Source of the DNA: Methanobacteriaceae archaeon
GTDB lineage: Archaea > Methanobacteriota > Methanobacteria > Methanobacteriales > Methanobacteriaceae
Assembly (NCBI GenBank): GCA_029219465.1
Contig: JAQXTL010000007.1
Coordinates: 62,001-126,000, forward strand
Reading direction: 5' to 3'
Length of the DNA: 64,000 bases
Part shown: in pieces, positions 33,803 through 41,250 of the stretch
Numbering within the stretch: position 1 is the first letter of the stretch
Layout of the letters: the number at the start of each line of letters is the position of its first letter
The notes under the pieces: generated by a model
What the model was told of the DNA's origin: nothing
The model's input: only the letters and a program-made list of their open reading frames with translations
Database searches by the model: none
Made by a program: the position numbers and the translations under genes

Positions 33803-34285
33803 TTAAAAAATACAAGGCCAAATCATCATTAACCCAATCATTATCATTACAAAATGAGGTAAATATTCTGCAACAGCCTCAGGAACATATTTCATGACGT
33901 TACTACCTTCTGTAGAACCTAATGTGATTGCAATAGCTTCAAAAACAGTCAAAATAGGAATATAAATCCAGCTTAGAGTAGCAAATATTACAAGACTGTC
34001 TGAACCAAGCAATAATGCATTGACTTTTTCAGGGAATTTAACACCACTTATTCCAATAATCTGGATAATTATAATTAATACTCCACAAAAACATTTAAAG
34101 AAATCTTTGGATACAAAAAATAGCACAATACTTCCAATTAGTACTCCAAAAATACTGAATAATGTTTCAATTCCTAAATAAGAACGAATATTTTCCTTAA
34201 GAGTGCATCCATTTACACTTGTTATGATAAATGTGTCAATAACAAGACCAGATAATAATATAATTGTTTCTAATAGACTATGCAT
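33803..34285 (-). CDS. Integral membrane protein, hypothetical
   Basis: 160 residues with about five hydrophobic segments, beginning LLETIILLSGLVIDTFIITSVNG and ending LPHFVMIMIGLMMIWPCIF. Short charged loops contain KENIRSYLGIE and STEGSNVMKYVPEAVAEY. I cannot assign a family; small exporters of the MntP or LysE type have comparable size, but no signature is seen. It lies between ClC and TFS on the same strand, with gaps that suggest separate promoters. Confidence 0.55.
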   Translation of the reverse strand: MHSLLETIILLSGLVIDTFIITSVNGCTLKENIRSYLGIETLFSIFGVLIGSIVLFFVSKDFFKCFCGVLIIIIQIIGISGVKFPEKVNALLLGSDSLVIFATLSWIYIPILTVFEAIAITLGSTEGSNVMKYVPEAVAEYLPHFVMIMIGLMMIWPCIF

Positions 34286-34324: not shown

Positions 34325-34642
34325 CTAATTAGAACTTCTCCAGGTGTTTCCGCATTTTGCACATCTGATGAAATTAGTTGGTGCCTCATCAGCAGATCTT
34401 GTCTGTACAGTCCACCAGTATCCTTTTGTTCCACCACATTTATAGCAGGTTATTCTTGTGGTTGGAAGTGCTACATTGTTGTTGTCTGTTACAATTACCT
34501 TGGTTTCAGGTTTGGTTTCTCCTTTCATATGATATTGTTGTTCTAAATCATCATTTGTTAAGGATTTTTCATAACCACAGCTACATTTAATTGTACCATT
34601 TTTAGGCATTAGCATTGCACCACATTCAGGACAGAATTCCAT
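34325..34642 (-). CDS. tfs: Transcription factor S (archaeal TFIIS-like cleavage factor)
   Basis: 105 residues with two zinc ribbons: MEFCPECG with CSCGYEK at the N-terminus, and CYKCGG with CAKCGNTW at the C-terminus. The tip of the second carries SADEAPT, whose Asp-Glu pair enters the RNA polymerase channel to stimulate cleavage of backtracked RNA, so the factor looks active. ATG 34642 is used; a GTG four codons earlier is part of the RBS region. It rescues stalled RNA polymerase. Confidence 0.93.
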   Translation of the reverse strand: MEFCPECGAMLMPKNGTIKCSCGYEKSLTNDDLEQQYHMKGETKPETKVIVTDNNNVALPTTRITCYKCGGTKGYWWTVQTRSADEAPTNFIRCAKCGNTWRSSN

Positions 34643-34729
34643 ATAATTAAACACCCATAAAAAGTTGTAAGTATTAATTTAATAAAAATAGTTTATAAAT
34701 ATTTGTTTTTTAAAAAAAAAGTTTGAATG

Positions 34730-34748
34730 TGGAAGGTTTAACCCTCCA
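34730..34748 (-). terminator. Terminator of the ExbB/DUF2149 operon
   Basis: TGGAAGG-N5-CCCTCCA pairs over 7 bp with one G-U. It overlaps the DUF2149 stop codon and is followed on the minus strand by a nine-T run. Confidence 0.6.
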
Positions 34749-35058
34749 CCATAATCAGCTTACCGGTAGCAGGGTCTTTGTATACCTTACCCATTTCGGT
34801 ATATCCTTGACCAGAACTGTTTGAAGTGTCTGGAGTTTCGTTTAATTGCTGGCCTTGGTCTACTTCAGTAGTTTGTTGTTGCATAGCTTCCTGCATACTT
34901 TGGTCAGGATCAATCATAGCCTGCATATTCCAGCTTATGATTACAAAAACAAGAAAACCAACAGCAATAACAAGCATTGCATCTACAAGGTTAGCAATAC
35001 CAGTCATCGGGTCTTCTTCTACTCTTTTTGACCTACGCCTACCATTTTTCCTTACCAT
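34738..35058 (-). CDS. DUF2149 protein (ExbD-like partner)
   Basis: 106 residues: a basic N-terminus (KNGRRRSKRVEEDP), one transmembrane helix (LVDAMLVIAVGFLVFVIISW) preceded by an Asp, then an outward-facing Gln-rich region and KVYKDPATGKLIMVEG. This topology matches ExbD/TolR, with an Asp near the helix start that could conduct protons. It sits eight bases downstream of the MotA/TolQ/ExbB gene, a pairing seen in many methanogens. The driven partner is unknown. Confidence 0.75.
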   Translation of the reverse strand: MVRKNGRRRSKRVEEDPMTGIANLVDAMLVIAVGFLVFVIISWNMQAMIDPDQSMQEAMQQQTTEVDQGQQLNETPDTSNSSGQGYTEMGKVYKDPATGKLIMVEG

Positions 35059-35065
35059 AAAACCA

Positions 35066-35710
35066 CTATTTATTCATATAATCAAGAACTGCATCAATTA
35101 AAGCATCTAAATCAGATAAATATCTGTCATACCATGAAGATCTAAGTTTACCAATGAAATAACATAATGCACTAGAACCAATACCAACAATAGTTGTGTT
35201 AAATGCAACAGTTAAGGAACTTGCAAGAGTATTGATGTCTCCTGCACCTAATGCTGCAAGACCTGGACCCATAGGGATTAAAGTACCCATTAAACCGATA
35301 GTTGGACCAAGACGAGTAATAATATCTGTTTTTCTTAATGATTCGATAGTTTTTTCTTCTTCAAATTCGAATAATTTACGAGCAAGAGCTTCTCTTGAAG
35401 AGTCACCTAATGATTCAGAAGATGCAATTTCAGTTAAAACCTTTTTTTGAGATTTTGGAATATCAGCATTTGAAATTACACTTTTTAACTCATCAACAGA
35501 TTGTGAAGCATTAATATCATAAATTAAATCTCTAATTACTCCAACAGGAACCTTTTTTCTGGATGTATATTCTGAAATAGCTCCACCTAATGTAATAATT
35601 GTAATAATAACAATTACAAGTAAAATAACCAATACAGGAATAGTTAAGCTTTGAGAAATAACATCAAGAGAACCTGTTAAAAATTCTCCCCCAGGAATGC
35701 TTAAAACCAT
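35066..35710 (-). CDS. MotA/TolQ/ExbB-family proton channel protein
   Basis: 214 residues with three membrane segments: an N-terminal one (LTIPVLVILLVIVIITIITLGG), a long cytosolic region, then LGPTIGLMGTLIPMGPGLAALG and TIVGIGSSALCYFIGKL, the classic ExbB TM2/TM3 block. With an ExbD-like partner it would form an ion-powered motor. In bacteria such motors energise outer-membrane receptors, but this organism has no outer membrane. The RBS AGGTGA and the following DUF2149 gene indicate an operon headed by the DUF2162 gene. Confidence 0.85.
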   Translation of the reverse strand: MVLSIPGGEFLTGSLDVISQSLTIPVLVILLVIVIITIITLGGAISEYTSRKKVPVGVIRDLIYDINASQSVDELKSVISNADIPKSQKKVLTEIASSESLGDSSREALARKLFEFEEEKTIESLRKTDIITRLGPTIGLMGTLIPMGPGLAALGAGDINTLASSLTVAFNTTIVGIGSSALCYFIGKLRSSWYDRYLSDLDALIDAVLDYMNK

Positions 35711-35725
35711 ATTTTTTCACCTAAA

Positions 35726-36436
35726 TTATTTTAAAATGTTTCTGCCTCTTTTATTCAAGACCATACCTCCAAATAATAAAATTGCAAATGCAATTATAAT
35801 CATAAGGATGTCTTGAGGAGAAGCAATTGTAATGGAAAGAGAAGTTTTGGTAAGAGCTGCTGCAATATTTGGAATTACAATAGCTGAAAGTAAGAAATAC
35901 GCACCTAAAAACAACATGAAATTACCTAAAACAACAGGATAAGGTTTATCAATGAATTTTATAATTGTATTTGATGCAAAATAAGTTACAATCATTACTC
36001 CAACCAATGCTACTGCTGCATAACAGCTTAAATCAAATGTAGCAATGTTTATACTTGGTGCAACGATTAAAACGCTAGCAACAATTGAACCAAAACAGCA
36101 TGGACAAGGAGCGATAATAGCTAAGGAAGTTGCAGTTGATGTGTTTTTGTCGTGTATTTTCCATTCTCTTATTGTAAAAAGACCGGCAATAATCATGATT
36201 GAAGCCATAATAATATAAAACATTGTATTATAACCATAAATTGCCTGAACAAGTTGATCTGTGAAAAATGAAGCAATATAAGAAATAATAATTATTCCTG
36301 CACCATATGATATACAGATTCCTGCAAACAATTTTTTTGACAAATCAGCCAAACCAGATGCAAGTCCTATTTTTATTCCAAAAATAACAACAGATGCGAA
36401 AATTCCAAACTGCCATAAAACACTCATAATATCCAT
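35726..36436 (-). CDS. DUF2162-type membrane transporter-like protein
   Basis: 236 residues with about seven transmembrane helices. A conserved CPCCFG lies mid-protein (IIAPCPCCFGSIVASVLI), and another potential metal or redox site is absent. It heads the operon with the ExbB- and ExbD-like genes (RBS GAGGAAATTAAT). Families with a CPCC motif in a helix are often linked to metal or thiol transport, so coupling to the ion motor is an attractive reading, but the substrate is unknown. Confidence 0.7.
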   Translation of the reverse strand: MDIMSVLWQFGIFASVVIFGIKIGLASGLADLSKKLFAGICISYGAGIIIISYIASFFTDQLVQAIYGYNTMFYIIMASIMIIAGLFTIREWKIHDKNTSTATSLAIIAPCPCCFGSIVASVLIVAPSINIATFDLSCYAAVALVGVMIVTYFASNTIIKFIDKPYPVVLGNFMLFLGAYFLLSAIVIPNIAAALTKTSLSITIASPQDILMIIIAFAILLFGGMVLNKRGRNILK

Positions 36437-36595
36437 ATTAATTTCCTCTTTATCAATTTAAATTTAATAAACTGCAAATTAATATTACTAATTTATTATA
36501 TATAAAATTTTATAGGAAAATTTATTTTAAATGAGTAAGTTTTAAGGTGCTTAAAATATAATATTTATAATATTAATAAAAAAATGAGGCAAAAT

Positions 36596-40749: not shown

Positions 40750-41250
40750 CTAGTCTTGAGTTGGTACACGAGTAGCCAATTCTTTGTTTAATTCGTAAAT
40801 TAATCTGTTGTCGCCATCAGCTAATTTAGCTTTTGCAACTAATTCCATTGCGTTTTCTTCTTCTTCAACTTGTTCTTCAACAAACCATTGTAAGAAGTTG
40901 TTGGTTGCGTGATCTTTTTCTTCGATAGCGATATTTACTAAATCATTAATAAGACCAGTTACCATTTTTTCATGTTCTAAAACATGTTCAAATGCAGCAA
41001 GAGGGCTTTCCCATTCAGTTTGTGGTCCTTCAATAGCAGTTAAGGTTACAGAAGCTCCTCTTCTGATAATGTAATCATAGAATTTAATTCCATGTTCTAA
41101 TTCCTCATTTGCTTGAACTCTCATCCAGTTAGCAAATCCGGATAAATCTTCATCTTCAAAATAAGCTGCCATAGATAAGTACAAATAACCTGAGTAAATT
41201 TCAGCATTTAATTGAGCATTTAATGCTTTTTCCATATTTTCTGATACCAT
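40750..41250 (-). CDS. ftn: Ferritin
   Basis: 166 residues with a four-helix bundle: [40 protein letters not shown] and [16 protein letters not shown] supply the ferroxidase Glu/His residues of bacterial-type FtnA. It oxidises and stores iron, and also limits peroxide damage, as the rubrerythrins do. It is monocistronic and divergent from nudC. No clear metal box is visible in the 73-bp upstream gap. Confidence 0.95.

Follow-up and report, generated by a model that had tools for sequence, protein, structure and literature searches.

The operon and its three proteins

What would a motor of the ExbB/ExbD kind, which in bacteria passes energy to an outer membrane, be doing in a gut methanogen that has no such membrane? 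The question is raised by three genes of the window (the whole 64,000-nucleotide stretch of DNA that was analysed), all of them intact, which lie on the minus strand at 34738-36436 with intergenic gaps of 15 and 7 bases. Gene T (35726..36436, minus strand, 236 aa) encodes a DUF2162 membrane protein and candidate metal permease (Pfam PF09930, E 8.8e-66), U (35066..35710, minus strand, 214 aa) a proton channel of the MotA/TolQ/ExbB type (PF01618, E 1.8e-9), and V (34738..35058, minus strand, 106 aa) an ExbD-like single-span DUF2149 protein (PF09919, E 3.8e-24). The curated Pfam cut-offs were exceeded by all three, in the case of U with 37.9 bits against a cut-off of 22.9. A sequence-only reading of this DNA had described these genes as one operon containing an ExbB/ExbD-like pair, and their coordinates, strand and family matches were confirmed here.

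The pairing of U and V with ExbB and ExbD is supported at the level of residues. The profile of U matched MotA structures (E 7e-5), and its GLMGTLIPMGPG and AFxTT regions are conserved. In V, the candidate proton-carrying residue is Asp26 (codon at 34981..34983, minus strand), which is invariant among 26 archaeal V proteins and coincides with the transmembrane Asp of ExbD in an alignment of nine V proteins with a Trichlorobacter ExbD. A weak structural model of V (pLDDT 62.1) places a helix at residues 19-45. In Pfam, V had no ExbD match up to E 1, DUF2149 and one sub-threshold family being its only matches.

Protein T was modelled by AlphaFold2 with nine helices (mean pLDDT 75.9). The CPCC motif ascribed to it is indeed present, at residues 111-114 (36095..36106, minus strand, read from the sequence), and would suit metal or thiol chemistry. 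Among 26 aligned DUF2162-type proteins it occurs in 14, with CPCY in three more and neither form in nine. This clue is a weak one, because the motif is gone from T of some loci linked to the cobalt/nickel transport gene cbiM (L093, L112, L135 and L138) and retained in window-type T proteins that adjoin CbiM (L079, L086 and L095). Fold comparison gave no clear relative: Foldseek returned no match under E 0.26, with TM scores of at most 0.40 in the rows listed, and VIA-align gave half-MFS-like matches with a best Z of 11.1, a value possible for mere helical arrangements. Nothing convincing was found when the profiles of T and V were compared with PDB sequences, and an NCBIfam scan yielded no match above cut-off.

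The region upstream of the operon (36437..36583, minus strand) contains a TATA-like stretch. Of 17 window-type operons, 12 have a dyad of the form TGAT(G/A)-N9-16-(C/T)ATCG in the 150 bases that precede T, against 0.025 expected after simple shuffling, the 17 sequences being related to one another; the window's own upstream region (36437-36583) has no such dyad.

Other genes surround the operon. Directly downstream of V lies a TFIIS/RPB9-type zinc-ribbon gene (34325-34654), and a similar gene was seen by eye at the same position in two other genomes, G041 and G066. Next, at 33803-34285, comes the gene of a small membrane protein whose match to TauE is weak and does not reach the cut-off, and a similar small protein also adjoins the operon in G066 (by eye). 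A ferritin-like gene, named from reading its sequence, lies at 40750-41250, about 4.3 kb from the operon, and such a gene is near the operon in G041 and G066 too.

Conservation and genomic contexts

Conservation was then evaluated in 151 genomes of Methanobacteriota, the phylum to which all surveys of archaea reported here refer. DUF2149 was found in 135 of them, DUF2162 in 129 and CobN in 118. DUF2149 and DUF2162 occur together in 128 genomes, DUF2149 alone in seven, DUF2162 alone in one and neither in 15, two of these last having been deduced from the DUF2162 total rather than from per-genome rows. Genome G106, which is 97% complete, lacks DUF2149, DUF2162 and CobN. The sequence-only reading had named the absence of DUF2162 from all occurrences of the ExbB/ExbD-like pair as one outcome that would speak against it, and the co-occurrence in 128 of 151 genomes is the opposite of that outcome.

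The neighbourhood scan covered the best 80 of 582 relatives, mostly from Methanobrevibacter, and U was present in the open reading frame list for 79 of these 80 loci. Among the matches listed, T stands beside U in 61 of the 79 loci, so that the neighbourhood is conserved; lack of such conservation was the other outcome that would have counted against the sequence-only reading. DUF2162 is thus the usual partner of the pair, but it is not always needed, since by this search 17 of the 79 loci listed carry U-V without T. Examples of the latter are L105, L109, L113, L115, L147 and L150. In L105 and L109 the pair lies behind adhesin-like proteins of 2187 and 2034 aa with PKD, propeller and beta-helix domains, in L150 behind a protein of no known domain that carries the C-terminal tail described below, and in L147 behind no surface protein.

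What stands upstream of the operon is informative as to its purpose. Among the matches listed, T-U-V immediately follows a CobN-type gene in 28 of 79 loci, and T follows CbiM and a small gene in the position of CbiN in seven of 79, Pfam confirming CbiM in all seven; none of these 35 loci lacks T. Moreover, 25 of the listed loci contain a U of the window type (79-89% identical). Their T-U-V stands behind CobN in six (L088-L092 and L094, U 79-83% identical), behind FmdE/CbiM in three (L079, L086 and L095, U 85-87% identical), and apart from both CobN and CbiM in sixteen, which are window-like, some of these loci being incomplete. The window's own module therefore moves between genomic contexts. 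In the window, neither CobN nor CbiM adjoins the operon.

Links to metal acquisition

Further links to metals were found in the window's genome and beyond it. The same genome has a second set of genes, in which two exported proteins, one with an FmdE domain and one small, are encoded together with a divergent DUF2162 protein (E 2.3e-11), U and V; CbiM (E 1.6e-39) adjoins this set on the opposite strand. In G139, a single same-strand run consists of CbiM (E 3.4e-42), a gene in the position of CbiN, two CobN genes, T, U and V. In G146, presumably a Methanothermobacter, an exported CobN with the same tail precedes FeoB, an order consistent with PMC3087415, where one CobN and FeoAB bear neighbouring locus numbers. 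In the bacterium Runella, CobN-U-V lies inside the hyp maturation cluster of a nickel hydrogenase, and the place of T is taken by a protein with weak matches to NicO and DsbD_2, below the Pfam cut-offs; in Azospirillum, CobN-U-V lies near NikR and an iron-type ABC transporter.

In the window's genome, an exact TGTATTCA-N16-TGAATACA dyad was also noticed at L159:13928-13959 (G000:C4), where it precedes the FmdE gene of the second set by 68 bases. Its spacing is like that of NikR operators. As a scan of the other loci revealed no such dyad ahead of FmdE, it was not used as evidence of a NikR-like operator.

These links to CobN/HmuS, CbiM and FeoB, which the sequence-only reading had missed, likely reveal the purpose of the motor. 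That reading had proposed that the motor energises either a transporter or a cell-wall process: transport is now the most likely of the two, while a pure cell-wall role found no direct support, adhesin-like clients keeping such a role possible.

If transport is the purpose, T-U-V could itself be the transporter, U-V energising T for the passage of a metal or metal-tetrapyrrole, with CobN and FmdE merely capturing or preparing the substrate outside. The frequent position of T beside U, its presence in every listed locus linked to CobN or CbiM, the replacement of T by the NicO/DsbD_2-like protein in Runella and a CPCC that could bind metal are all consistent with this, and the authors of PMC13227078 presume that heme crosses the inner membrane by way of HmuTUV. 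However, the 17 of 79 listed loci with U-V without T, some of them behind adhesin-like proteins, the lack of CPC in nine of 26 T proteins and a fold comparison that gave no clear relative all count against it, and we consider it a somewhat doubtful explanation that still carries real weight.

Exported CobN-type chelatases

We then focused on the CobN-type proteins. The window's genome has a single CobN (G000:C4:415068-418325), which is not linked to T-U-V. As read from its sequence, this protein of 1594 aa carries a hydrophobic export signal at its N-terminus and a helix at its C-terminus, and its CobN domain spans residues 296-1381. In M. curvatus (L130) and Methanoflexus (L106), T-U-V directly follows an orthologue of this unlinked CobN, and in G049 such an orthologue lies upstream of T and of a U cut by the contig end. 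Within the genus, 67 genomes were compared using thresholds of at least 70% identity for U and at least 54% for CobN, fragments included. Both window-type U and this CobN are present in 53 genomes, U without this CobN in six, CobN without U in three and neither in five (Fisher p 0.002); a 48% CobN fragment of G065 was left out, and G049 was scored as CobN alone, its U being at the contig end. Of the six genomes with window-type U and without this CobN, one is 96% and one 94% complete. Moreover, G064, G066 and G070 each carry a single T-U-V and a single CobN, located on different contigs. Beside the unlinked CobN of the window's genome, an exported DUF1002 protein is encoded divergently (L160:13375-14205), and DUF1002-like neighbours resembling it were seen by eye in several genomes of the genus. 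In another locus (L178, G150:C1), the CobN linked to T-U-V is broken by several stop codons.

The loci encode 82 distinct CobN-type proteins that reach 900 aa or more. A hydrophobic segment at the N-terminus is combined with a C-terminal helix in 58 of them; 15, cut and broken copies included, stay under the threshold of 1.8 used for the C-terminal helix, among them the Azospirillum CobN with 1.71, and nine are mixed. Both anchor and tail match are missing from ten cytosolic archaeal CobN proteins (1120-1236 aa), of which two (L052 and L055, with flanks of only about 1.5 kb) adjoin a Mg-chelatase ATPase of the ChlI/VWA type. The exported kind of CobN is often found with T-U-V. These data suggest that U-V may take the place of the chelatase ATPase.

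Whether the exported archaeal CobN works like HmuS, the CobN-like chelatase of Bacteroidota, was addressed through motifs and a tree. In the window-genome CobN, the first His of HFGTHG is replaced by Ser, GTHG being kept, and the histidine of the HmuS motif LSLDHxxEFMGG is absent, its place being taken by Asp in each of the 15 aligned exported CobN proteins of archaea, the window genome's included. Because of these two replacements, the substrate and the direction of the reaction may differ from those of HmuS. In a quick tree of 38 rows, with SH-aLRT as its sole support measure, nine bacterial exported proteins form one side of a branch and seven cytosolic archaeal proteins split off on another; one archaeal exported group is nearest to the bacterial proteins, and the window-genome CobN falls in a different group. 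The tree thus does not group it with HmuS. The window-genome CobN may work like HmuS, but neither tree nor motifs identify it as HmuS.

A C-terminal tail shared by proteins beside U-V

CobN, FmdE-domain and adhesin-like exported proteins encoded beside U-V have in common a juxtamembrane (A/S)YE(V/I/L) box (the YE box) and an anchor: about 10-16 residues separate the box from a membrane helix, whose last residues are mostly GY or GF, and the protein closes with a short charged stretch. The box is present in 19 of 20 aligned ends, and its Glu is invariant. In a first test with a narrow pattern on the fetched loci, the box was found in 26 of 47 CobN, 11 of 12 FmdE and seven of 24 other proteins within 2.5 kb of U, and in none of 28 proteins farther away or without U on that strand. 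This test was weak, with missed variants and few true controls, most non-adjacent proteins looking polytopic, and it was superseded by a whole-genome profile search.

The latter covered 55 distinct genomes of the 151, namely all 16 without DUF2149 and 39 with it, the 39 chosen non-randomly for completeness and spread, and counted matches at E <=1e-4. Of the 39 genomes with DUF2149, 34 have the tail, against two of the 16 without (p 2.5e-7). Once the profile contributors G000, G041, G146 and G118 were left out, the figures were 30 of 35 against two of 16 (p 8e-7); both p values overstate the association, the genomes being related and non-independent, and G106 was counted once. The genomes with DUF2149 that missed the threshold are G113 (0.0019), G010 (2.1e-4), G114 (1.8e-4), G131 (1.4e-3) and G123 (0.034). 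The two matches without DUF2149 are G009 (8e-18), a fragmented assembly in which a tailed CobN and a CbiM-like gene were seen by eye, and G065 (9e-6), which carries T-like and U genes on L251. A match in G067 (1.5e-4) spans the helix only. The co-occurrence of tail and DUF2149 partly reflects the co-occurrence, or joint loss, of CobN itself.

In the window's genome, five proteins match the tail profile at E <1e-9: the FmdE protein, CobN and, far from both U-V pairs, three proteins of 663, 525 and 394 aa. The sequence-only reading had cast DUF2162 as the handler of the cargo; a tailed surface protein such as CobN or FmdE is the more likely one.

Several tailed proteins are adhesin-like or of no known domain and show no metal link, so it could be argued that U-V moves, folds or presents any tailed protein, adhesins included, with metal proteins as one class of clients. 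This would fit the occurrence of the same tail beside U-V on adhesin-like proteins (with PKD or beta-helix domains, or none known) and the three additional tailed proteins of the window's genome. Nevertheless, CobN or CbiM stands directly upstream in 35 of the 79 listed loci, and U lies with CobN in one cluster in all eight annotated plasmid loci opened; so general a function appears unlikely to us.

Two beta-helix proteins (L242:5230-7263 and L251:5373-7217) have other juxtamembrane stretches before the C-terminal helix, KQIVIEDD and KAINLDD, and are perhaps a second class of clients. In bacteria, the tail profile matched none of the five exported CobN proteins scanned, HmuS included, nor did it match the CobN of the archaeal G113. 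By eye, most bacterial exported CobN proteins have a G-x-x-(M/L/V)-like stretch at the position of the box. As the profile misses the five bacterial proteins scanned, the link of the tail across domains is weak.

Proposed mechanism and significance

Altogether, the motor probably powers surface proteins that take scarce metals from extracellular molecules. The explanation we prefer, to which we give about an even chance, is that T-U-V is a motor driven by the proton motive force, that it works in trans on surface proteins with the tail, for the most part metal scavengers, and that T is a permease. U and V, with the membrane Asp of the latter, would form an ion-driven stator, and T would most likely be a permease of the cytoplasmic membrane. 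The motor would act in trans on exported proteins that have a single C-terminal helix and an (A/S)YE(V/I/L) box, this box presumably being bound by V or U. In the window's genome, the clients would include the sole CobN/HmuS-type chelatase and the FmdE-domain protein next to CbiM, and the most likely work would be the acquisition of Co, Ni or Fe. The simplest account of the lone operon of the window is that its motor serves tailed clients in trans.

Cytosolic chelatases draw their energy from ATP-driven subunits, ChlI/ChlD or CobS/CobT. In the exported chelatase, motor energy may stand in for these subunits, so that Co, Ni or Fe would be removed from (or inserted into) an external tetrapyrrole or other chelate, the freed metal then entering via T, CbiM or FeoB.

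TonB pulls on a TonB box. A more specific version of the proposal, which we put forward as tentative and well short of an even chance, is a Ton-like system without an outer membrane: the ExbB-DUF2149 pair would pull on the YE box, drive an extracellular chelatase by the proton motive force and serve several unlinked clients, and HmuUV of Bacteroidota would likewise act on HmuS and not on the receptor.

Co, Ni and Fe are needed by methane-forming enzymes. If the preferred explanation holds, methanogens own an active scavenging route for Co, Ni or Fe, and a docking tail marks motor-driven surface proteins. Work of this kind is known in bacteria with an outer membrane. Hmu-like ExbB-DUF2149 systems are already known, and the proposed docking tail is possibly a new principle. 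In the openly licensed literature searched, nothing was found tying archaeal CobN to ExbB-DUF2149, and no paper was found on "DUF2162", while DUF2149 does occur there.

Comparison with known systems

The window-genome CobN shares with the chelatases ChlH-ChlI-ChlD and CobN-CobS-CobT the catalytic part of the CobN superfamily, with GTHG, but differs from them in being exported. With the CbiMNQO/NikMNQO cobalt and nickel ECF transporters, the archaeal loci share CbiM, directly upstream of T-U-V in the seven loci among the matches listed; these transporters are not known to have an ExbB-type motor.

As in ExbB-ExbD-TonB and MotA-MotB, U belongs to the ExbB/MotA family and V spans the membrane once with a membrane Asp; in contrast, V has no ExbD match in Pfam and a short outer part, and no TonB was seen adjoining. 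The resemblance of U and V to ExbB and ExbD could mean that they drive a Ton-like route through the pseudomurein wall or S-layer, and a figure legend of PMC12583661 depicts HmuU/HmuV of B. theta as powering the outer-membrane receptor HmuR. However, reading of the archaeal neighbours by eye and by Pfam scans revealed neither TonB nor a TonB-dependent receptor, and Trichlorobacter retains a separate ExbB-ExbD-TonB set; we regard such a route as very improbable.

The closest described system is hmuYRSTUV of Bacteroidota, which comprises HmuY, a TonB receptor, HmuS, which resembles CobN, a hypothetical protein, a channel of the ExbB family and a protein with DUF2149 (PMC10434189). The archaeal loci that have CobN upstream share with hmuSTUV the order chelatase, membrane protein, ExbB and DUF2149, a chelatase with an N-terminal hydrophobic segment and a C-terminal anchor, and a tandem of ExbB and DUF2149 homologous to U-V. 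They differ in that the archaeal T is a DUF2162 protein not detectably related to HmuT, that no HmuY or TonB receptor was recognised in the loci read, that they are linked to CbiM and FeoB, that their exported CobN lacks the LSLDH histidine, and that HmuS does not match the archaeal tail profile. Homology of T with HmuT was looked for and not detected (hhalign probability 0.6%, E 0.096, with an HmuT profile of only three sequences). According to PMC12583661, HmuS is a membrane-bound heme de-chelatase that strips iron with NADH and without ATP, and the purified protein is active in vitro without U and V; the motor may therefore be dispensable for de-chelation itself. The same paper calls the use of the archaeal homologues unclear.

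Plasmids extend the comparison. Eight annotated loci were opened, a P. piscicida match being left out and Pseudoalteromonas NC201 being read as open reading frames. U clusters with CobN in all eight, the Diaphorobacter locus having no annotated DUF2149, and three Bacteroidota plasmids carry a TonB receptor and HmuY-CobN-x-U-V. In Trichlorobacter (Geobacter) lovleyi, one cluster of plasmid pSZ77 comprises T-U-V-CobN and, separately, an ExbB-ExbD-TonB set. It has all four components of the archaeal loci, DUF2162 included (Pfam E 1.5e-63), and its CobN shows by eye a box-like GFEMKE before the C-terminal helix; it differs from them in its TonB receptors, its separate ExbB-ExbD-TonB set and the cobalamin genes in its flanks (PMC3403914). 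Since Trichlorobacter keeps this separate set, U-V need not be the energiser of TonB, and, together with the receptor-less S-T-U-V loci of archaea, this suggests that U-V serves the chelatase or an inner-membrane step and not the receptor. The archaeal operons take the outer membrane out of the problem, and the two jobs proposed for HmuUV thereby become separable and testable.
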